Source: Floccifex porci
GTDB lineage: Bacteria; Bacillota_I; Bacilli_A; Erysipelotrichales; Erysipelotrichaceae
Direction of reading: 5' to 3'
DNA: 64,000 nucleotides
Assembly: GCF_009696175.1 (NCBI RefSeq)
Contig: NZ_VUMM01000002.1
Coordinates: 124,001-188,000, forward strand
Positions 9,448 to 52,067 of this stretch are shown here, in pieces; positions within the stretch are counted from its first letter, which is position 1, and the number at the start of each line of letters is the position of its first letter. The notes below the pieces were generated by a model, which was given only the letters and a program-made list of their open reading frames with translations, searched no databases and was not told the DNA's origin. The position numbers and the translations under genes are program-made.

Positions 9448-9864
9448 CTATCCCTGATTCTCAATGTATCTCTCGATTGTTTCTTTTGACACGTTACCTA
9501 TACTGCACGCAAAATACCCGTCCGACCAAAAGGTGTTCTCTTTCCAAAAGTACCCTCTGAGGTAAACGCCGTGCCTTTTCCATACATGATAGGTACTGTA
9601 AGACTTCAGTGTGCTCACAATCTGCGAGATATTGTCAGTGGGATTGTACTGCAGCAGTATATGTATATGATCCTTGTCTGTTTCCATTCTCCGGATATAC
9701 CAATGTTTTCGGACGCAGATATCAAATATATATTGCATAACAGCCTCCCGAATTTCTCCAAACAGCAACTCTTTTCTGTATTTCACAACAAATATCAAGT
9801 GAGCCATTAAGAGATTCTTGTTGTGTCTTCGGTATTGGTATCTGTCATCTGAAATATTATGCAT
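9448..9864 (-). CDS. tnpA: IS200/IS605 family Y1 transposase TnpA
   Basis: This 138-residue HUH-tyrosine transposase cuts and joins single-stranded element ends at hairpins. The HUH motif is HIH in DKDHIHILLQY near residue 65, and the catalytic tyrosine is probably the one in RYIENQG at the extreme C-terminus. Length is normal and no disruption is seen, so it is probably active. An AAAGGAAAG ribosome site precedes the ATG. The gene faces away from tnpB with a short shared promoter region. Confidence 0.93.
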   Translation of the reverse strand: MHNISDDRYQYRRHNKNLLMAHLIFVVKYRKELLFGEIREAVMQYIFDICVRKHWYIRRMETDKDHIHILLQYNPTDNISQIVSTLKSYSTYHVWKRHGVYLRGYFWKENTFWSDGYFACSIGNVSKETIERYIENQG

Positions 9865-9877
9865 ATAGCTTTCCTTT

Positions 9878-9909
9878 CAATAGATAGATGTAGTATAATA
9901 TATCTATTG
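9878..9909. promoter_or_regulatory. Shared tnpA/tnpB promoter region with 9-bp inverted repeat
   Basis: CAATAGATA at 9878-9886 and TATCTATTG at 9901-9909 flank a TATAAT at 9894-9899 that can serve tnpB. The same bases form the start of both ribosome-binding regions, one on each strand. Whether a protein binds the dyad is unknown. Confidence 0.5.
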
Positions 9910-9921
9910 AAGGAGGTCAAA

Positions 9922-11187
9922 ATGGCCGACACTGTTAAGACAATGAAACTGCACATTCACATGGATGACTCTGATATAAGCTCTGTTGAATATATGACAG
10001 AGCAGTATCGTCTTGCCTGCAATTTCGTGTCTCAGTATATCTTTGACCATGACTTTCCAATGAGTTCTGTGACTCTTAGTAACAGGCTGTATCAGACAAT
10101 ACGTTCTGAATTTGGGTTGAAGTCTCAGATGGCACAATCCGCAATCCGAACAGTGACAGCCAGATACGATGGGATCAGAACACAGATGAGGGAAAAGCCA
10201 TATAAATTCAAGGACATCTATACGAACAAGTGGCACTGCATCTATCGGAATCTGAACTGGTTACAGAAACCTGTTCTGTTTTCAAGACCACAGGCAGATC
10301 TTGTCCGAAACAGAGATTACAGCTTTGTAACAGATCAAAAGACGAATACAACATATCTATCCCTGAATACACTGGATGGCAGAATCAAAGTTACTTTTGA
10401 TGTACCTGCATGTTTCAGTGATTACTTTGATGGTACATGGTCATTTGGAACAGGAAAGATTGTATCCCTGAAAGATGAATGGTACTTTCACATTCCAGTG
10501 ACCAGAAAGAACGACATTGAATTTGACAAAGATCAGGTGAAGCATGTTGTCGGCATTGATCGTGGTCTTCGTTATCTGATGACAACATACAATGAGAAAG
10601 ATCAGACATCTTTCTATTCTGGTGAAGCAGTATGCAGGAAAAAAGATACCTTCAATAAAGTCAGAGCTGAACTGCAGTCTAAAGGTACAAAATCAGCAAA
10701 ACGTGCACTGAAACGTATTTCCGGACGAGAAAACCGTTGGATGAGCGATGTCAATCATTGCCTGTCAAAGACACTCGTGGATACATACGGAAGCAATACA
10801 CTGTTTGTGATGGAAGACCTTACGGATGTCAGCTTTGATGAAAACCTGAGAAGCCGTAACAGTAAACAGCGTAATGAATTACGATCATGGTCTTTTTACC
10901 AGCTGGAACAGTTTCTGACATACAAAACAGAAGAAGTCGGTTCTAAGGTTATTCAGGTATCACCGGAATACACATCACAAAGATGTCCGAAGTGTGGAAG
11001 AATCCATAAAGCCAATAGAGACCATGATTCACATCTGTATACATGTGACTGTTGTGGATATCAGGCTAATGACGATCAGGTTGGTGCCATGAATATTCAG
11101 CTGTTAGGAACATTATGGATTTCTGGTAATGAGAATCCGAAGTTCAGAATATCTGAACAGGGAAAAGCAATCAGACCAACCAGTTAA
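9922..11187 (+). CDS. tnpB: TnpB RNA-guided endonuclease of the IS605 element
   Basis: A 421-residue TnpB. The three RuvC acidic positions appear intact: D in VVGIDRGLRYL near residue 210, E in LFVMEDLTDVS near 297, and D in QANDDQVGAMNI near 385. Between the last two is a four-cysteine zinc finger (CPKCG ... CDCCG). TnpB proteins are nucleases guided by an RNA from the element's right end, and they help keep the element by cutting empty sites. ATG 9922 has an AAGGAGGT ribosome site at 9910-9917. No disruption is visible. Confidence 0.93.
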   Translation: MADTVKTMKLHIHMDDSDISSVEYMTEQYRLACNFVSQYIFDHDFPMSSVTLSNRLYQTIRSEFGLKSQMAQSAIRTVTARYDGIRTQMREKPYKFKDIYTNKWHCIYRNLNWLQKPVLFSRPQADLVRNRDYSFVTDQKTNTTYLSLNTLDGRIKVTFDVPACFSDYFDGTWSFGTGKIVSLKDEWYFHIPVTRKNDIEFDKDQVKHVVGIDRGLRYLMTTYNEKDQTSFYSGEAVCRKKDTFNKVRAELQSKGTKSAKRALKRISGRENRWMSDVNHCLSKTLVDTYGSNTLFVMEDLTDVSFDENLRSRNSKQRNELRSWSFYQLEQFLTYKTEEVGSKVIQVSPEYTSQRCPKCGRIHKANRDHDSHLYTCDCCGYQANDDQVGAMNIQLLGTLWISGNENPKFRISEQGKAIRPTS

Positions 11188-35719: not shown

Positions 35720-35943
35720 TTTTCCACATCTATTTTATAATTTTCAACATTTAAAACCTATAGTTTTTCCTCTTTTTTTGATTTACTGTGTAAAACTCTT
35801 ATTTTTGGCTAATATTAAACCAAAAACGATTGTATAAGTTGGTGGAAAAAGGGTAGTTTTCCACATAAGTTTTCCACAGTAATTTAACTTTTCCACATTG
35901 GGGATATCTTTTTCCACAATTCAAAATGTGGAAAAGTGGAAAA
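35720..35943. other. oriC, upstream DnaA-box cluster
   Basis: TTTTCCACA 9-mers lie at 35720, 35857, 35870, 35889 and 35910 on the plus strand and at 35927-35935 on the minus strand; 35935-35943 is a near match. The stretch between 35655 and 36020 has no gene and is very AT-rich. Its place before dnaA is typical of the first half of a bipartite origin. Bound DnaA probably also represses the dnaA promoter. Confidence 0.9.
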
Positions 35944-44450: not shown

Positions 44451-44495
44451 ATGATAAATCATATGAATAGAAAAACAGGATTCACTTATTTATAA

Positions 44496-44524
44496 TTGAA
44501 ATATTTGAAAATTAATGGTATAAA
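44496..44524 (+). promoter_or_regulatory. Promoter of the serS T-box transcript
   Basis: TTGAAA at 44496-44501, a 17-base spacer ending TGG, and TATAAA at 44519-44524, an extended -10. It predicts an mRNA start near 44531. Confidence 0.85.
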
Positions 44525-44530
44525 AGATAA

Positions 44531-44752
44531 GTAAAACGTTGAAAAGGAAAAGTAATTGAATTCTAAATTGTAGAGAGAATATGTATGGTGAAAATATTTA
44601 TTAGATTTTAATGAAAAGCCCCTTTGAGTAATTTAATGAAATCAGTAGTTAAATTCGGTACATACCGTTATCATGTCAAGTGACTTTAGAAATAAAGTAA
44701 AAAGGGTGGCAACGCGAGATATCGTCCCTTTGTGGATGGTATCTCTTTTTTT
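44531..44752 (+). promoter_or_regulatory. T-box riboswitch controlling serS
   Basis: The leader ends with the T-box AGGGTGGCAACGCG (44703-44716), followed by a 12-bp terminator stem, GAGATATCGTCC (44716-44727) and GGATGGTATCTC (44734-44745), and T residues. Upstream, GAAAAGCCCCTTTGAG resembles a specifier loop; AGC at 44617-44619 is a serine codon that fits the gene. Uncharged tRNA-Ser would favour the antiterminator and serS expression. Confidence 0.92.
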
Positions 44753-44771
44753 ATTTATTAAGGAGGAGAAT

Positions 44772-46058
44772 ATGTTAGACATTAAATTTGTAAGAGAAAA
44801 TCCAGATCTTGTAAAGGAAAATATAAAAAAGAAATTTCAGGATCATAAATTACATCTTGTAGATGAAGTATTAGAAGAAGATAAAGAAATGCGTGCTTCT
44901 CAACAAAAAGGTGATGAATTAAGAGCTGAAAGAAAAAAGATTTCTAAAGAAATTGGGCTTTTAATGAAACAAGGCAAAAAAGAAGAAGCAGAAAAAGTAA
45001 AAGAAAAAGTTGCACAAATCGCAAAAGAATTGGTAGATCTGGAAGAAAAAGAAAATCAGTTGAGAGAATCTGTAAGAGATAAAATGCTTCAGATTCCAAA
45101 TATTATCGATCCAAGTGTTCCTATTGGAAAAGATGATTCAGAAAATGTGGAAGTTCAAAGATTTGGTGAACCAATTGTTCCAGATTATGAAATTCCTTAC
45201 CATGCAGATATTATTAAATCTGTAAATGGAATGGATAAAGAAGCAGCTGGTAGAACAAGTGGTGAAGGTTTCTATTTCCTATTAGGTGATATTGCTCGTC
45301 TTCATGAAGCGATGATTTCATGTGCCAGAGATTTTATGATTGATCATGGATTTACTTATGCAATTCCACCATTTATGATTCATTCAGATGTTGTAACAGG
45401 TGTTATGTCCTTCCCTGAAATGCAGGCCATGATGTACAAAATTGAAGGAGAAGACTTATATTTAATAGGAACTTCTGAACACTCTATGATTGGTAAATTT
45501 AAAGGACAGATCCTGACAAAAGAAGAATTACCAGTTCATATGACATCATATTCCCCTTGTTTTAGAAAAGAAGGTGGATCTCATGGTTTGGAAGAAAGAG
45601 GATTGTATCGTGTTCACCAGTTTGAAAAACAGGAAATGATTGTGATTTGTGAACCAGAAGAATCTATGGAATGGTATGAAAAAATGTGGAAATTGACTGT
45701 AGATTTATTCAGAAGCTGGGATGTTCCTGTTCGTCAGCTGGAATGTTGTTCTGGAGATTTAGCGGATCTGAAAGTTAAATCATGCGATATTGAAGCCTGG
45801 TCACCTAGACAGAAAAAATATTTTGAAGTAGGATCTTGTTCCAATTTAGGAGATGCACAAGCAAGACGTCTGCAGATTCGTACAAAAGGTGAAAAAGGTA
45901 CTTATTTCCTTCATACATTAAACAATACAGTTGTAGCTTCTCCAAGAGGGCTAATTGCTTTAATAGAAAACAATTATCAGGAAGATGGTTCTATTTTAAT
46001 ACCTAAAGTACTGCAGACTTATATGGGTGGAAAAGAAAAAATCACGAAAGTCAAATAG
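44772..46058 (+). CDS. serS: Seryl-tRNA synthetase
   Basis: A class II synthetase of 428 residues. The N-terminal long coiled-coil arm is near residues 25-105 (KKISKEIGLLMKQGKKEEAEKV), class II motif 2 is FRKEGGSHGLEERGLYRVHQFEK near 265, and motif 3 is NTVVASPRGLIALIENN near 385. ATG 44772 follows an AGGAGGAG site; a longer reading would start inside the T-box. Expression is governed by the T-box. Confidence 0.98.
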   Translation: MLDIKFVRENPDLVKENIKKKFQDHKLHLVDEVLEEDKEMRASQQKGDELRAERKKISKEIGLLMKQGKKEEAEKVKEKVAQIAKELVDLEEKENQLRESVRDKMLQIPNIIDPSVPIGKDDSENVEVQRFGEPIVPDYEIPYHADIIKSVNGMDKEAAGRTSGEGFYFLLGDIARLHEAMISCARDFMIDHGFTYAIPPFMIHSDVVTGVMSFPEMQAMMYKIEGEDLYLIGTSEHSMIGKFKGQILTKEELPVHMTSYSPCFRKEGGSHGLEERGLYRVHQFEKQEMIVICEPEESMEWYEKMWKLTVDLFRSWDVPVRQLECCSGDLADLKVKSCDIEAWSPRQKKYFEVGSCSNLGDAQARRLQIRTKGEKGTYFLHTLNNTVVASPRGLIALIENNYQEDGSILIPKVLQTYMGGKEKITKVK

Positions 46059-46087
46059 TTGATTTACATCATACAAACTGATATAAT
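46059..46087 (+). promoter_or_regulatory. Promoter of the SRP RNA
   Basis: TTGATT at 46059-46064, a 17-base spacer and perfect TATAAT at 46082-46087, seven bases before the RNA start. It begins directly behind the serS stop codon. Confidence 0.88.
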
Positions 46088-46093
46088 ACCAAT

Positions 46094-46178
46094 GCTACTA
46101 CAATGATATCTTATGAATCAGGTCAGGTCGGGAACGAAGCAGCCTTAAGTAAGCTCTACCATGTGTGGTAGCTTTTTT
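46094..46178 (+). ncRNA. ffs: Small signal recognition particle RNA (4.5S type)
   Basis: The conserved Ffh-binding core reads CAGGTCAGGTCGGGAACGAAGCAGCC. The ends GCTACTACA (46094-46102) and TGTGGTAGC (46164-46172) pair over nine positions, followed by a run of T as terminator. It is the short form lacking an Alu domain, about 80 bases. The position between serS and tadA-dnaX matches the scr gene of Bacillus. Confidence 0.93.
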
Positions 46179-46277
46179 TGTGGAATAGCGAGGAAACACG
46201 GTCCTTTAGGGACGAGATAAATCGCTTTTTTGCTTGCGTACGGTAGTGTATAAACCAATACATGCTATAATATACCT

Positions 46278-46721
46278 ATGAAATACATGATGAGAAACTT
46301 ACATACGGTAGAACCTGTGTTTATAATCTGAATTACCATATAGTATGGGGAACAAAGTACAGAAACAAAGTTCTTACTGAGCAGATTAAGAAAGATTTGA
46401 AGTCTTTACTGTACCAGATTGCGGAAGAAAAAGGTTTCTCGATTGAGCATCTCGAGATTGGTATGGACGACATGTGCATCTGCTTGTGTCCGCCCTGCCG
46501 AAGTTGTCGGTGACAATGATCGTCTCCTGCCAGAAAGGAACATTGGCTTTCAGACTTATTCGTATGCACCTGGAATTCAAATCTTTTTATTGGAAAAAGA
46601 AGACAGACACTTATGGTCTTCGCCTTACTATGTGGAAAGTATCGGTGTTTCAAACCAACAGGCGGTTGCTAATTACATTGACGACCAGAGAAAGAAGGAG
46701 GCATCCCATGACAAAGATTAA
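46278..46721 (+). pseudogene. Broken Y1 transposase gene (tnpA)
   Basis: Pieces of a TnpA are readable in different frames. The first, VYNLNYHIVWGTKYRNK to IEHLEIGMDD, breaks exactly at the HUH motif: one base is missing in GACGACATGTGCAT, where DDHVH is expected. The middle continues as HLLVSALPKLSVTMIVS in a second frame, and the end, RHLWSSPYYVESIGVSNQQAV followed by ANYIDDQRKK, returns in a third. No good start codon remains. Confidence 0.85.
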
Positions 46722-47454
46722 GAGAGGTTTCCGAATCCGCCTGTATCCCAACGATGCTCAGAAACAGCAGATTGCTGTTTCGTTTGGCTGTTCAAGATGG
46801 CTTTGGAACAACATGCTGGCGATGTAGAAAGAACGGCACGACAATGAGCCTTCTGCTCCATATCTGAGTGCATTTTCCATGAACTACCTTATCAAACAGC
46901 TCAAGAGAGAATATCCATGGCTAAAAGATGCGGATTCAACCGCCCTGACTGGAACAACTGAGAATCTGCATGATGCATATACACGTTTCTTTAAGGGACA
47001 GACCCGTTTTCCAAAGTTCAAGTCAAAGAAACATGAGCAAAGTTACATTTCCAAATGCGTCAACAATAACATTGTTATCATCGACGATCATCACATCCGC
47101 ATTCCAAAGCTGAGTAACGTATACTTCAAATGTGATTGAAGACCTGAAAGCCAAGGGAATGATGCACAATCATCATCTGTCAAGAGCCGTTGCGAATGTT
47201 ACTGGAACATGTTTGCAAACATGTTCGCCTACAAATGCCTGTCTTATGGTAAGAAACTGATTCGTGTTAATCCGAAATACACAAGCCAGACATGCAATGT
47301 ATGTGGCAGCGTCAACAATCGCATGGGTTACAACGTTTATGGATAGTTGAAGGTCAGAGAATGGAACTGTCCTGAGTGTGGCACTCACCTTGATCGAGAC
47401 GTCAACGCTGCAATCAATATCAAAGAAACAGGTTTGGCTGTAGGCTTAGCCTGA
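46708..47454 (+). pseudogene. Broken TnpB gene with internal deletion
   Basis: Starts MTKIKRGFRIRLYPNDAQKQ, meets a stop after NNMLAM, continues to RIPKLSNVYFKCD and a second stop, and then jumps to the C-terminal zinc finger ([33 protein letters not shown]). The RuvC regions with the first two catalytic acids are lost. A third stop interrupts the finger. It cannot make a nuclease. Confidence 0.88.
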
Positions 47455-47590
47455 ATGGATACAAGAAAAGGCTTTGAACGAGCCATGGTAAACAGTTGAG
47501 CCTCTGGCTGTGAAGTATGCAGCTAAGTTTGACGTTCCCAGAAGCTCTGTCCCTTTAGGGACGGGTAGTTCACATAAAAGAGAGGATCAT

Positions 47591-48055
47591 ATGAATACAC
47601 AGGAAAAATGGATGAAAGAAGCAATTAAACAGGCAAAAAAGGCATATGAAAAAGATGAAGTGCCTATTGGTTGTGTGATTGTAAAAGATAATAAAATCAT
47701 CGCCAGAGGATACAATAAAAGAGAAATGCTTCAACAAAGCTATGCACATGCAGAAATGATTGCCATTCAGAAAGCCTGTAAAAAATTAAACACCTGGCGT
47801 TTAGAAGAATGTGATCTATACGTTACGTTAGAACCCTGTCCAATGTGTGCAGGTGCCATTATACAATCACGAATTCGTAATGTGTATTATGGTGCAAGTG
47901 ATTTTAAAGGCGGAAGTGTAAAAACCTGTATACAATTATTTGATATAAAACAATACAATCATCATCCTTCATATGTTTCAGGAATATGTGAACAGGAATG
48001 CGCACAATTATTAAAAACATTTTTTAAAAATAAAAGGAATAAAAACAAATCATAG
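47591..48055 (+). CDS. tadA: tRNA-specific adenosine deaminase TadA
   Basis: TadA converts A34 to inosine in the tRNA-Arg anticodon. The 154 residues have the zinc-deaminase motifs YAHAEMIAIQKAC near residue 56 (HAE) and LEPCPMCAGAI near 84 (PCxxC). ATG 47591 follows AGAGGA; longer readings start inside the IS remnant. The IS end is about 25 bases upstream, so the gene's old promoter may have been replaced. Confidence 0.95.
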   Translation: MNTQEKWMKEAIKQAKKAYEKDEVPIGCVIVKDNKIIARGYNKREMLQQSYAHAEMIAIQKACKKLNTWRLEECDLYVTLEPCPMCAGAIIQSRIRNVYYGASDFKGGSVKTCIQLFDIKQYNHHPSYVSGICEQECAQLLKTFFKNKRNKNKS

Positions 48056-48093
48056 TTTTTGTTGATATAATAATTACGTTAGGAAGTGAAAAT

Positions 48094-49800
48094 ATGGCAT
48101 ATCAGGCTTTGTATAGAAAATACAGACCAAAAAATTTCGATGAAGTTGTAGGTCAGGAACATATCATTCAAACACTAAAAAATGCAATCTATCAGAATAA
48201 AATTGCTCATGCTTATTTATTTTGTGGTCCAAGAGGAACCGGAAAAACAACAACCGCAAAAATATTTGCGAAAATGTTAAATTGTGAAAATGAAAATAAA
48301 CCATGTGAAGAATGTGAAAACTGTAAAATGGCTTCTCAATCCTCTCATCCAGATATAATTGAAATTGATGCAGCCAGTAACAATGGTGTAGAAGAAGTTA
48401 GAAATCTGATTGATAAAGTAAAATATGCTCCTTTATCAGGAAAATATAAAATATATATTATTGATGAAGTTCATATGATGAGTACAAGTGCATTTAATGC
48501 TCTTCTTAAAACAATTGAAGAACCACCAGCACACGTAATTTTTATATTCGCAACTACAGAGCCAAATAAAGTTTTATCAACAATTATTTCAAGATGTCAA
48601 AGATTTGATTTTTCAAAAGTATCACAAAAAGATATAGAAAAAAGACTTAAAATTGTATGTAAAAAAGAAAATATTGAAATTGAAGAAGAAGCAATTTCTT
48701 TGATTGCTCAATTATCTGATGGTGGTATGAGAGATTCATTATCTATACTGGATCAGTGTACAGCTTACTGTATTACAAACATTACAGCAGATTCGGTACG
48801 TAAGATATATGGTGTATTAAATATTAAAGATATTGGTACACTCTATTCTTATTTATATAAGAAGGATGTAGATTCTTTATTAAAGACACTGGAGTCTTAT
48901 TCAAATATGGGAATTGATCTTCAAATGTTTGTTCGTGATTTTATTTCATTAATTAAAGAAAGCATCATTGTAGATTATTCTCCAGAAAGCACATTGGTTT
49001 CTGATACTCATAAAAGTATAATCGAAGAGTATTTTTCAAATACAACTGTTTCATATAAATTAAATGTTTTAAATCATTTAATGGATACATATTCTAAATT
49101 TGTATATGCATCAAACATATTGGACTACATTGAAACCTGTTTACTGACAATTATTTCTGAATCATATGATTTCAAAACAAAAGAATCAAAAGATAACCTG
49201 ATTCAGATTAAAAAAGAAGAAAATAATATTGAAAAAAAGGATAATCCTATTCCAGTCATAACCAATGAAATTAAAAAAGATGAGAATATCAATGTTTCAC
49301 GTGAAACATTGATACCGGAATCAGATAAAAAATTTATTTTAAATGACGATTACATTATACAATTACTGGTTGGAGCCAATAAAAAAATAAAATTGGAAGA
49401 TATAGAAAAAATGAAACAGCTAAGTATGTATATTTCAGATTTAAATTATGGAAAATATGCCAACAGTTTAAAAAATATGAAAGTACTAGCTAGTTCAGAT
49501 ACATATATGATTGTGGTGTTAAAATCAGATTTAGAAGTTAAAAATGTAAATAATATTCAGAATGAAGAAGGATATGAAAAATTTACGAATGTCATATTAG
49601 GTAAACCAAAAAAGATATTCGCAATGGATTTCAATCAGTACAGTCAGACAATGGATACATTCAGAAGACTATCTGCCTCAAAATCTTTACCAGAACCAGC
49701 AATTGTTCATGTGAATTATGATGAAAATCATATGAATATAGATAAAACAGAAGAAAATTTAATGAAAGTATTTAATGATTTAGAAATTATAGATGATTAA
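48094..49800 (+). CDS. dnaX: DNA polymerase III gamma/tau subunit
   Basis: The clamp-loader ATPase. The 568 residues show Walker A CGPRGTGKTTTAKIFAK near residue 44, a zinc module CENENKPCEECENC near 65-78, Walker B IYIIDEVHMMS near 124, and TTEPNKVLSTIISRCQRFDF near 153. Residues 360-415 form a lysine-rich linker before the C-terminal domain. That linker holds an A AAA AAG site at 49233-49239 and the parS palindrome at 49287-49314. recR follows after 12 bases without the ybaB gene usually found between. Confidence 0.97.
   Translation: MAYQALYRKYRPKNFDEVVGQEHIIQTLKNAIYQNKIAHAYLFCGPRGTGKTTTAKIFAKMLNCENENKPCEECENCKMASQSSHPDIIEIDAASNNGVEEVRNLIDKVKYAPLSGKYKIYIIDEVHMMSTSAFNALLKTIEEPPAHVIFIFATTEPNKVLSTIISRCQRFDFSKVSQKDIEKRLKIVCKKENIEIEEEAISLIAQLSDGGMRDSLSILDQCTAYCITNITADSVRKIYGVLNIKDIGTLYSYLYKKDVDSLLKTLESYSNMGIDLQMFVRDFISLIKESIIVDYSPESTLVSDTHKSIIEEYFSNTTVSYKLNVLNHLMDTYSKFVYASNILDYIETCLLTIISESYDFKTKESKDNLIQIKKEENNIEKKDNPIPVITNEIKKDENINVSRETLIPESDKKFILNDDYIIQLLVGANKKIKLEDIEKMKQLSMYISDLNYGKYANSLKNMKVLASSDTYMIVVLKSDLEVKNVNNIQNEEGYEKFTNVILGKPKKIFAMDFNQYSQTMDTFRRLSASKSLPEPAIVHVNYDENHMNIDKTEENLMKVFNDLEIIDD
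49233..49239 (+). other. Possible -1 frameshift site in dnaX
   Basis: The heptamer A AAA AAG is in the reading frame GAA AAA AAG GAT. A -1 slip gives AAA AAA GGA TAA, a stop one codon later, producing a 383-residue gamma-like protein. The E. coli dnaX site uses the same heptamer and also stops after one codon. I see no strong upstream Shine-Dalgarno stimulator. Confidence 0.5.
49287..49314. other. parS site (ParB-binding) inside dnaX
   Basis: The 16-mer TGTTTCACGTGAAACA at 49293-49308 matches the parS consensus TGTTNCACGTGAAACA completely. The palindrome extends perfectly to 28 bp from 49287 to 49314. In the protein it encodes part of the linker (NVSRET). ParA and ParB genes are in the same window. 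Confidence 0.93.
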
Positions 49801-49812
49801 CGGAGGAAATAA

Positions 49813-50400
49813 ATGTATCCAAAGAAATTTCAGAACATGATCGACTCCTATCAGAAATTACCAGGAGTCGGTAAGAAAACTGCAGAAAGATATGCGTTTA
49901 AAACGCTTGACTGGGATGAAGAAACTCTAGATCAGTTTATTCAGTCTTTAACAGATCTAAAAAAAGGAATCACCTATTGCCATATATGTGGTAATTTAAG
50001 TGAAGAAGATATATGTGATATCTGCAAAAATGAAAATCGCAATCACAATTGTATATGTGTGGTTCAAAATCCAAAAAACATTGATTCTATTGAAGCTATG
50101 CAAGAATTTAATGGTGTATACCATGTACTAAATGGAACAATTAATGTATCTAAAGGTGTTTTACCAGAACAATTAAATATACAATCTTTGATCAATCGAA
50201 TCAATGAGGATACAGAGGAAGTCATCTTAGCACTGGATCCAACTGCAGATGGAGAAACCACTTCAATGTATATATCAAAACTTTTGAACAACAAGTGTAA
50301 GGTCACTAAACTTGCCAATGGCATTCCTCTAGGATCTCATTTGGACTACACAGACCCTCTTACTCTGTTAAAGGCATTTCAAAAGCGTTCTAATAACTGA
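49813..50400 (+). CDS. recR: Recombination protein RecR
   Basis: RecR works with RecF and RecO in gap repair. The 195 residues begin with a helix-hairpin-helix (YQKLPGVGKKTAERYAFKTL), then a four-cysteine zinc finger (CHICGNLSEEDICDIC near 56-71) and a TOPRIM domain (ICVVQNPKNIDSIEAM near 81, LALDPTADGETTSMYIS near 140). An ACGGAGG site precedes the ATG, and a long hairpin follows. Confidence 0.97.
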   Translation: MYPKKFQNMIDSYQKLPGVGKKTAERYAFKTLDWDEETLDQFIQSLTDLKKGITYCHICGNLSEEDICDICKNENRNHNCICVVQNPKNIDSIEAMQEFNGVYHVLNGTINVSKGVLPEQLNIQSLINRINEDTEEVILALDPTADGETTSMYISKLLNNKCKVTKLANGIPLGSHLDYTDPLTLLKAFQKRSNN

Positions 50401-50404
50401 TTTT

Positions 50405-50874
50405 TCATATTTTAGCCATATGATTGCTCAGATTTAAGATAAAAGGCATTTATTTTTATATGATTTATATATGAAATATCATATAACTTAATAAATGCCT
50501 TTTTATATGAAATTTTATAAAAAAAATAGGAATTATTTATATTTTTCACATGGAGGATAAAATTAAGTTAAAACAAATATTTTAATAAAATTTAATATGA
50601 AATTTAAAAATAAAATCATATGATTGAAATATTTTAAAATCAGTATTAAAAATATTAAATTTAAAAAAACATATTAGAAATAACTTATTCATATGACTGC
50701 TCATATTTTATTTTTAAATATATGAAAATAATTTATGAATTCATATATTTTATTATCTATAAAAATTTAATGAATCAATAAATAAATTTAAAATATATGA
50801 AAATCCGATAAAGAATCATATACAATTAAATCATATTTATGATTTATATATGAAAAGATTAAATAAATTCATAT
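50405..50874. repeat. Array of five ATATGA-N15-TCATAT dyads with extra half-sites
   Basis: This gene-free stretch between recR and 50962 is extremely AT-rich. Five dyads with identical 15-base spacing begin at 50458, 50595, 50720, 50795 and 50848. Half-sites (TCATAT or ATATGA) not in the dyad frame lie at 50405, 50418, 50469, 50505, 50618, 50689, 50691, 50701 and 50831. Several dyads extend to TATATGA and TCATATA. Spacers differ in sequence, so the arms are conserved, not the whole unit. The last dyad ends 12 bases before the promoter of the next gene. Confidence 0.8.
50441..50507 (+). terminator. Long hairpin behind recR
   Basis: AAAAGGCATTTAT (50441-50453) and ATAAATGCCTTTT (50491-50503) pair perfectly over 13 bp. 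Inside, TATATGAT and ATCATATA form a second stem. T-rich sequence follows, so this probably ends the dnaX-recR transcript. The inner stem coincides with the first ATATGA-N15-TCATAT dyad. Confidence 0.65.
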
Positions 50875-50885
50875 TAGAATGATTG

Positions 50886-50914
50886 TTGTGATGAAAAAAA
50901 TATTTTGCTATAAT
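50886..50914 (+). promoter_or_regulatory. Promoter of the HTH/coiled-coil gene
   Basis: TTGTGA at 50886-50891, a 17-base spacer ending TGC, and perfect TATAAT at 50909-50914, an extended -10. The dyad array ends directly upstream, which suggests autoregulation. Confidence 0.8.
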
Positions 50915-50961
50915 TGTAAAAGATTTTTATATAGGAAAATCATGCGAAAAAGGGGTTTAAT

Positions 50962-51528
50962 ATGGATGAGAATCAGACAATAGATGTTTATTATGATATG
51001 GACATTGCACAAATATGTCAGCATTTTAATAAAACAAGAAATACAGTGGATAAGGCAGTCGCAAAACTGGTAAAAGATTATCCGGATAAAGATTATAAAT
51101 ATAAGAATCCAGATACAAAAAGAATTACAATCAAAGCAGAAGGTGTTGAAAAATTATCGACTTATTTTAGAAAAGAAAAGAATGAAATTTCAACCGTTGA
51201 AATGGAACTTCGATATGAAAATGAAAAATTAAAGGCGGTGATTGAGGAAAAAGATCGTTCTCAAAAATTGCTGGAACAGTTATATCAGGAAAAATTAAAA
51301 TTGGAACTTGAAAAATCAAAACAGACTTTTTTAATTGAACAACAGACAAAAGAAGAACAGATTCAGAAACTGGAAACAGAAAAATCGGAACTGATCAAAG
51401 AAAATCAGAATCTTCAACAAAAGATTGAAGATGTATCTGAATTACAGAAAGAATTAGAAGAACATAAAAAGAAAGAATCAGAATACAATTCCAAATCTTT
51501 CTTCTATCGTTTACTGCATAAGATATAG
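50962..51528 (+). CDS. HTH/coiled-coil protein, possible DNA-membrane tether (RocS-like layout)
   Basis: I do not recognise the family with certainty. Residues 8-60 look like a winged HTH (DIAQICQHFNKTRNTVDKAVAKL, then a wing and ITIKAEGVEKLSTYF), as in plasmid RepB-associated and RocS-type proteins. Residues 75-172 are a continuous coiled coil rich in E, K and Q. The last residues, SKSFFYRLLHKI, can form a short amphipathic helix able to touch the membrane. ATG 50962 has an AAAGGGG site. The gene overlaps the convergent CYTH gene by 25 bases. Function as a nucleoid tether is inference. Confidence 0.65.
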   Translation: MDENQTIDVYYDMDIAQICQHFNKTRNTVDKAVAKLVKDYPDKDYKYKNPDTKRITIKAEGVEKLSTYFRKEKNEISTVEMELRYENEKLKAVIEEKDRSQKLLEQLYQEKLKLELEKSKQTFLIEQQTKEEQIQKLETEKSELIKENQNLQQKIEDVSELQKELEEHKKKESEYNSKSFFYRLLHKI

Positions 51529-52067
51529 TCAAATGCTCTGGCAATTTTGCTAGGGCAATTTTTTTCATATTTCATATGAAAAGGATGAAGGATTTCATTA
51601 AAAGTCTTAATTCCATCATGTTCTTTTAAATATTCATATTCAATTTCATAATCATGTATATCATTAAAAATATTATAATCCGCACATAATTCGGCTTCTT
51701 CTGTTCTATAGATCCTTCTTTCTGTCTGTATCACAACAGTTTTCTTTAGTGGTTCACTCAAATTTAATTTCTGTAACCAGGATAATACTTCTGGATCGTT
51801 AATATTATCTATCTTATCCGTACTTATTTCTTTTTCATATTCAAAATGTGTTAATTTATCTTTTCTGATTTTTAAAGTAAATATTTTCTTTGAATCAATT
51901 GTTCGAATGCGTACTGCTGCATTCTGTTTTTTTACCTGTTTACTGGTCGTATCATAATAAGTATTGATCTGTATCCATGATTTTGAAAAATCATATGATT
52001 TTATAATCTGATCATATTGTTCTTTTGAAACAAGACATTTCAATTCTCTTTCCATCTGATTATACAT
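51504..52067 (-). CDS. CYTH-domain protein (YjbK-like)
   Basis: A 187-residue triphosphate-tunnel protein. The N-terminal ExExK-type signature appears as EREL KCLV near residues 6-13 (E, E, K alternate), with charged strands later: NAAVRIRTID, FTLKIRKD, EYEKEIS and DYEIEYEYL. Such proteins bind or hydrolyse triphosphates with metal. In Bacillus, yjbK lies near the NAD kinase and alarmone synthetase genes; here it is divergent from nadK. ATG 52067 follows AAAGGAGGG. Confidence 0.85.
   Translation of the reverse strand: MYNQMERELKCLVSKEQYDQIIKSYDFSKSWIQINTYYDTTSKQVKKQNAAVRIRTIDSKKIFTLKIRKDKLTHFEYEKEISTDKIDNINDPEVLSWLQKLNLSEPLKKTVVIQTERRIYRTEEAELCADYNIFNDIHDYEIEYEYLKEHDGIKTFNEILHPFHMKYEKNCPSKIARAFDYILCSKR

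Follow-up and report, generated by a model that had tools for sequence, protein, structure and literature searches.

In the origin region of the chromosome of a gut bacterium of the Erysipelotrichaceae, the gap between recR and a gene encoding a 188-aa protein carries a dense array of an 8-bp palindrome, TCATATGA, whose copies keep helical register, are better conserved than the DNA between them and occur in relatives together with the gene; these properties, like the position of the array, are shown here. We consider it very likely, in the absence of binding data, that the neighbouring protein has the array as its specific DNA target. By analogy with Par of plasmid pSK1, RocS and RacA, gene and array are likely (probability about 0.66) to form a chromosomal one-protein partition or membrane-anchoring module, whose main role, beyond autoregulation, would be to anchor or partition the origin region in the manner of a centromere. 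In this reading both binding and segregation are inferred.

The window, by which we mean the whole 64-kb stretch of DNA analysed, contains parB and parA at 14.3-16.0 kb, dnaA at 36.0 kb and a cluster of DnaA-box-like sequences just upstream of dnaA (35720-35935). From dnaA the genes run dnaN, recF, gyrB, gyrA, serS, tadA, dnaX and recR, followed by the array and the 188-aa gene, and then by a convergent CYTH-type gene, nadK, mutS and mutL (names assigned by reading translations). Measured from the array, dnaA is 14.5 kb and the genome's only parS (Table 1) 1.1 kb away; an earlier note, made from the sequence alone, had made no use of this position. In all 23 loci covering that stretch, parS is found 1.4-3.3 kb upstream of the 188-aa gene. 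The array sites, being TCATATGA, are distinct from the ParB-bound parS sequence TGTTTCACGTGAAACA, and the array does not qualify as a ParABS centromere. Transposon-related sequences were also seen in the window: an IS200/IS605-like pair at 9448-11187, judged from translations, with a TnpA-like protein on the minus and a TnpB-like protein on the plus strand, and, between serS and tadA (46474-47139), fragments of a transposon protein of TnpB type that look degraded.

Table 1. Features of the recR/188-aa gene locus, in window coordinates.
Feature	Position	Strand	Remarks
Wider cluster	44459..51998	.	10 of the genome's 68 exact TCATATGA in 7.5 kb
Perfect parS	49293..49308	.	TGTTTCACGTGAAACA; inside dnaX; the genome's only one, even allowing one mismatch
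recR	49813..50400	+	conserved upstream neighbour
Array-bearing recR-to-gene gap	50401..50961	.	TCATATGA-like sites; core 50405-50874, 86% A+T
Terminator-like hairpin after recR	50442..50503	+	AAAGGCATTTATT ... AATAAATGCCTTTTT; -25.6 kcal/mol, z -2.7
Dyad 1	50458..50484	.	two phased sites, 23 bp centre to centre; inside the recR terminator-like hairpin
Dyad 2	50595..50621	.	23-bp step
Dyad 3	50720..50746	.	23-bp step
Dyad 4	50795..50821	.	23-bp step
Dyad 5	50848..50874	.	23-bp step
Promoter-like site	50886..50914	+	TTGTGA-N17-TATAAT; TG before the -10; consensus scan, function unproven
Degenerate site	50940..50947	+	TCATGCGA; between promoter and start codon; possible autoregulatory operator
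188-aa protein gene	50962..51528	+	predicted winged HTH ~13-57, long coiled coil 59-175, conserved C-terminal tail EYNSKSFFYRLLHKI
Tail codons	51493..51525	+	KSFFYRLLHKI; net charge +3, hydrophobic moment 0.564; putative membrane-targeting amphipathic helix

The earlier note had described five dyads of the form ATATGA-N15-TCATAT, about nine half-sites outside them, a large enrichment of the constituent hexamers and an end of the array just before the promoter of the neighbouring gene, and all of these observations held (for the last, with a promoter-like site whose function is unproven). An exact pattern search of the window returned the five dyads (Table 1) and no others; pattern searches, on which all genome-wide site counts rest, found one further exact copy in the 2.02-Mb genome, outside the window. 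The core of the array contains 19 ATATGA/TCATAT hexamers, 10 within dyads and 9 outside, as compared with a mean of 2.08 (maximum 9 in 5000) in its dinucleotide shuffles and with an average of 1.5 (maximum 6) in the window's other 470-bp stretches of 75% A+T or more. The pairing was similarly far from expectation: dinucleotide shuffles gave 0.003 N15 dyads, and random placement of the same hexamer counts gave 0.19 N15 pairs, with five never reached in 20,000 trials. A chance product of AT-rich composition was rejected on these counts and on the phasing of control hexamers given below. The ATATGA/TCATAT arms contribute to the stem of the hairpin that follows recR in at least one relative (L012).

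What did not hold was the interpretation of the dyad as the two contacts of a dimeric protein, two hexamers 15 bp apart. Relatives show a single palindrome with many phased spacings: in 24 Erysipelotrichaceae recR-to-gene gaps TCATATGA was observed 81 times (2.4 expected) and was present in 22, and the next most enriched words include its variants TCATAGGA, TCATACGA and TCACATGA. Two carrier gaps (L031 and L039) hold no exact copy, only half-sites and sites with one mismatch. Across these gaps, site-to-site distances peak at 11, 23, 31, 42, 53, 63, 74 and 84 bp and onwards, with a best period of 10.5 bp (mean cosine 0.55, versus 0.09 for random placement); the value was 0.44 when one locus per lineage was taken (null maximum 0.13), and at most 0.21 for control hexamers in the same gaps. 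Spaced at multiples of 10.5 bp, the sites therefore all lie on one face of the helix. What repeats is the 8-bp palindrome with its half-sites, in helical register, and ATATGA-N15-TCATAT is two sites at a 23-bp step, one of several allowed spacings; the N15 dyad was rejected as the functional unit. The periodicity of the window's array alone is only moderate: a period of 10.5 bp is supported at p ~0.001, but the best period is 12.6 bp, a slightly better fit. Between close relatives, conservation was higher in sites than in spacers (0.93 versus 0.61; 0.98 versus 0.79; 0.69-0.76 versus 0.35-0.39).

The concentration of TCATATGA is not confined to the gap. Ten exact copies occur within 7.5 kb where 0.25 would be expected (scan estimate ~6e-11 after correction), at positions 44459, 45536, 47587, 48471, 49162, 49728, 50616, 50689, 51572 and 51991, with 50616 and 50689 falling inside the array gap. 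In relatives the excess extends 4 kb upstream and 1-2 kb downstream before reaching background, and in Absicoccus and Allobaculum mucilyticum the site cluster likewise occurs at the recR/188-aa gene locus. Compared with synonymous shuffles, the coding sequences of dnaX (37 versus 15.2) and of the CYTH gene (18 versus 5.6) are enriched in the palindrome, with 5 versus 2.9 in the control gene mutS. Amino-acid conservation explains part of this coding excess, and because the loci are related we regard the coding sites as suggestive only. The genes in which exact copies fall are serS, dnaX and the CYTH gene, and the positions of some of these copies are conserved in relatives. A candidate second array, the only other tight exact cluster in the genome (C14:17645-17694), was rejected, since it is a 21-bp repeat (encoding NDSHMIS) within the coding sequence of an unrelated gene.

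The 188-aa protein is predicted to begin with a MerR-type winged HTH, with helices at residues 15-22 and 26-39 and strands at 46-48 and 55-57, followed by one long helix spanning 59-187 (single-sequence fold prediction, pLDDT 88, pTM 0.45). Among its best fold matches is the DNA-binding domain of pSK1 Par on centromere DNA (8csh_A; Z 7.2, rmsd 1.5, 53/53 residues), together with the winged HTH of ParA2 and related partition proteins (Z 6.3-7.1) and RacA (Z 5.9); MerR-fold proteins such as BldC are also among the matches. Because the IF2 N-domain also scores 7.4, the Z values alone are indecisive, and we take Z ~7 as middling support for the predicted likeness to partition proteins. A sequence-profile search of the PDB returned coiled-coil matches only, so that the tie to Par and RacA rests on the fold comparison. 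At the other end of the protein, the last residues (EYNSKSFFYRLxHK) are nearly invariant, and the tail pattern K-S/G-F/L-F-Y-R-L-x-x-K recurs across relatives with a net charge of +3 and a hydrophobic moment of 0.49-0.62. On composition and conservation only, the tail is consistent with a MinD-like membrane-targeting helix, membrane binding itself being inferred. No Pfam match to DUF536, a domain with three conserved glutamines, was obtained for the protein at E<=1, and PF04394 was not found in its genome or in 60 relatives, under conditions in which a Lactococcus lactis control was positive. Membership of the DUF536 family was consequently rejected, and because this domain is absent we do not file the protein as a RocS/Par family member, only as one that may work like them.

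In 14 of the 24 loci the variant TCATAGGA occurs in the leader at -18 to -42, the place taken in the window by TCATGCGA. Given this site, the protein probably also represses its own gene; such autoregulation, inferred without expression data, is likely to exist besides the anchoring role.

Orthologues of the gene occur in 24/196 genomes of the family and in 11/60 genera, the 23 named loci belonging to Holdemanella, Faecalicoccus, Faecalitalea, Ileibacterium, Allobaculum, Catenisphaera, Absicoccus and MAGs. In each of the 23 carriers that could be assessed (window included), recR precedes the gene, with a gap of 240-1470 bp between them, and none of 21 relatives without the gene has TCATATGA in the kilobase after recR. 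In a recR tree a single branch (support 100/99) separates all carriers from the rest. As the carriers form one clade and the array is missing from non-carriers, gene and array were probably gained once and then kept together; for the same reason, their co-occurrence is evidence from a single gain only. The earlier note had suggested an operator array or a centromere-like site for the neighbouring HTH/coiled-coil protein, a suggestion that would have been refuted by an equal motif density in unrelated AT-rich stretches or by relatives keeping the gene without the dyads. The genome scan and the comparison of recR downstream regions that it named as checks were both run, and we judge that neither refutation was met, with 19 hexamers against a maximum of 6 in the first case and 22/24 carrier gaps holding TCATATGA in the second. 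The comparative evidence (gene and array present together in carriers and both missing in non-carriers, sites outconserving spacers) thus supports the suggestion, with binding and function inferred.

Carriers also differ from non-carriers in their parS and Spo0A content. Each of the 16 other carriers tested has one parS (plus, in Allobaculum mucilyticum, a second that carries one mismatch), versus two or more, mostly two to four, in 20/21 non-carriers. Spo0A was absent or below the cut-off in every carrier checked, with Spo0A_C absent from the genome studied here, and was present in 5/5 nearest non-carriers; its lack in carriers speaks against a RacA-like role in sporulation. This pattern fits a changed segregation strategy; as the carriers are one clade, it represents a single event, and coincidence is possible. 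A tblastn search of 72,556 plasmid records found no plasmid relative of the protein. A candidate viral relative was rejected: a metagenomic viral contig (L094:67-1008) carries only the first ~43 residues, which run in frame into unrelated phage-like sequence, and is probably a chimera. In Allobaculum sp. Allo2 (L040:4994-5183; G181:C1:408455-409115) the gene has internal stops or frame breaks, reflecting error or decay.

In the mechanism we propose, protein dimers would bind TCATATGA-like palindromes via the winged HTH, and the whole-helical-repeat spacing would place the bound dimers on one face of the DNA, where their coiled coils could let them pack next to one another. This packing would cluster the C-terminal tails, providing avidity enough to hold the membrane or a membrane/polar partner, so that the origin-proximal region with the sole parS would be tethered and its segregation or positioning aided alongside ParABS. 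From the site in the 5' UTR, the protein would repress its own gene. Binding, clustering, membrane contact, segregation and autoregulation are all inferred, with no binding, localisation or knock-out data at hand, and in a genome that has ParA, ParB and parS there is no obvious need for the module.

The leading rival explanation, which we consider unlikely, is that the array is an autoregulatory operator only, its many sites cooperatively tuning repression of the gene and perhaps of recR/dnaX. The array does lie upstream of the gene's promoter, many loci have TCATAGGA or TCATGCGA between promoter and start codon, and 10.5-bp phasing suits cooperative or looping repressors. However, ~10-20 sites over 0.4-1.5 kb are far above the need of one promoter, exact sites persist over kilobases, reaching into dnaX and the CYTH gene in numbers above those of synonymous shuffles, the placement beside parS and oriC is invariant, and a long coiled coil with a membrane-type tail is unusual in a simple repressor. 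A second rival, for which we see very little room, is that protein and array control initiation at the nearby oriC, or act in the manner of a nucleoid-associated protein by bridging the origin domain, without a membrane anchor. In its favour, the array is AT-rich and lies within ~15 kb of dnaA and its DnaA-box cluster, and BldC-type proteins are among the fold matches; against it, no DnaA box within one mismatch was found in the array, partition proteins rank high among the fold matches, and the conserved basic hydrophobic tail is left unexplained. That the sites serve another DNA-binding protein or are composition or terminator features, the neighbouring gene being incidental, draws on the overlap of dyad 1 with the hairpin after recR and on the lack of binding data, and is made very unlikely by the contrast between 22/24 carrier gaps and 0/21 non-carriers, by enrichment and phasing well above composition controls, and by dyads 2-5, which have neither a GC stem nor a T-run.

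The partition or membrane-anchoring reading can be extended into a bolder one, in which a Spo0A-less Erysipelotrichaceae clade acquired a second chromosomal centromere, single-protein and membrane-tethered, with its own sequence-defined phased array beside the last remaining parS, at about the time the lineage fell to one parS and lost Spo0A; on balance, we would lean slightly against this extension. If the anchoring reading is true, the array would be a second chromosome 'handle', not described before, by which freshly replicated DNA is moved or anchored, and the lineage would offer a natural chromosome with two different centromere-like systems side by side, the appearance of the second being placed on a definite branch of the phylogeny. 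RocS established that a single membrane-bound DNA-binding protein can drive chromosome segregation, its choice of DNA being unexplained; a RocS/Par/RacA-like protein with a conserved origin-proximal array would make that question directly testable.

We found no description of such a module in the literature searched, outside which most subscription papers fall. Its parts resemble pSK1 Par, RocS and RacA, and the combination (chromosomal, by parS, with a dense phased array, no DUF536 and a Spo0A-less clade) was not found elsewhere within that literature. Noc is a ParB-fold CTPase whose NBS sites are scattered over the chromosome, whereas the 188-aa protein has no ParB domain, carrying a winged HTH and coiled coil instead, and its sites cluster in one 7.5-kb region. 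The ParR/parC and TubR/tubC plasmid segrosomes likewise have repeat arrays upstream of the gene, with a spacing near one helical turn that lets the protein stack on DNA (PMC5016525), but here no actin- or tubulin-like motor gene is adjacent and the sites stand at irregular multiples of 10.5 bp rather than in tandem repeats. RacA of Bacillus subtilis, which anchors DNA to the cell envelope and whose ram sites are concentrated near the origin (PMC6593407), shares the predicted MerR-type winged HTH and coiled coil as well as the origin-proximal concentration of sites. It differs in acting in sporulation through DivIVA, the checked carriers having no Spo0A above the cut-off, and in that ram sites are dispersed over the chromosome, in contrast to one compact array adjoining the gene.

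Likenesses are also found in Par and RocS. The single-protein partition system of the Staphylococcus aureus plasmid pSK1 relies on a small protein with a MerR-type winged HTH, a coiled coil and a C-terminal helix (PMC11500499), an architecture predicted for the 188-aa protein too. The pSK1 centromere consists of repeats upstream of par, and in the present case too, centromere-like repeats lie upstream of the gene, the phased TCATATGA array being present in 22/24 loci (without binding data). Unlike par, the 188-aa gene is chromosomal, sits beside the sole parS, lacks DUF536 and has no match in the plasmid records searched. RocS of Streptococcus pneumoniae, the reported relatives of whose domain are Par and RacA (PMC11500499), resembles the 188-aa protein in being chromosomal, in combining a winged HTH and coiled coil (predicted in the 188-aa protein) with a C-terminal basic amphipathic tail (putative there), and in working, as is proposed here, beside ParB and parS (PMC11500499, PMC7022226). 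It differs in that DUF536, present in Par, is a required part of RocS, in that pneumococcus lacks the ParA present here, and in that RocS has been described as binding DNA non-specifically (PMC7022226), whereas the 188-aa gene adjoins a dense, conserved and sequence-defined array. Both RocS and Par have a winged HTH, a coiled coil and a C-terminal amphipathic helix, and RocS oligomerises before its helix binds the membrane (PMC11500499); by packing dimers side by side, the phased array would supply oligomerisation like that which the RocS helix needs.
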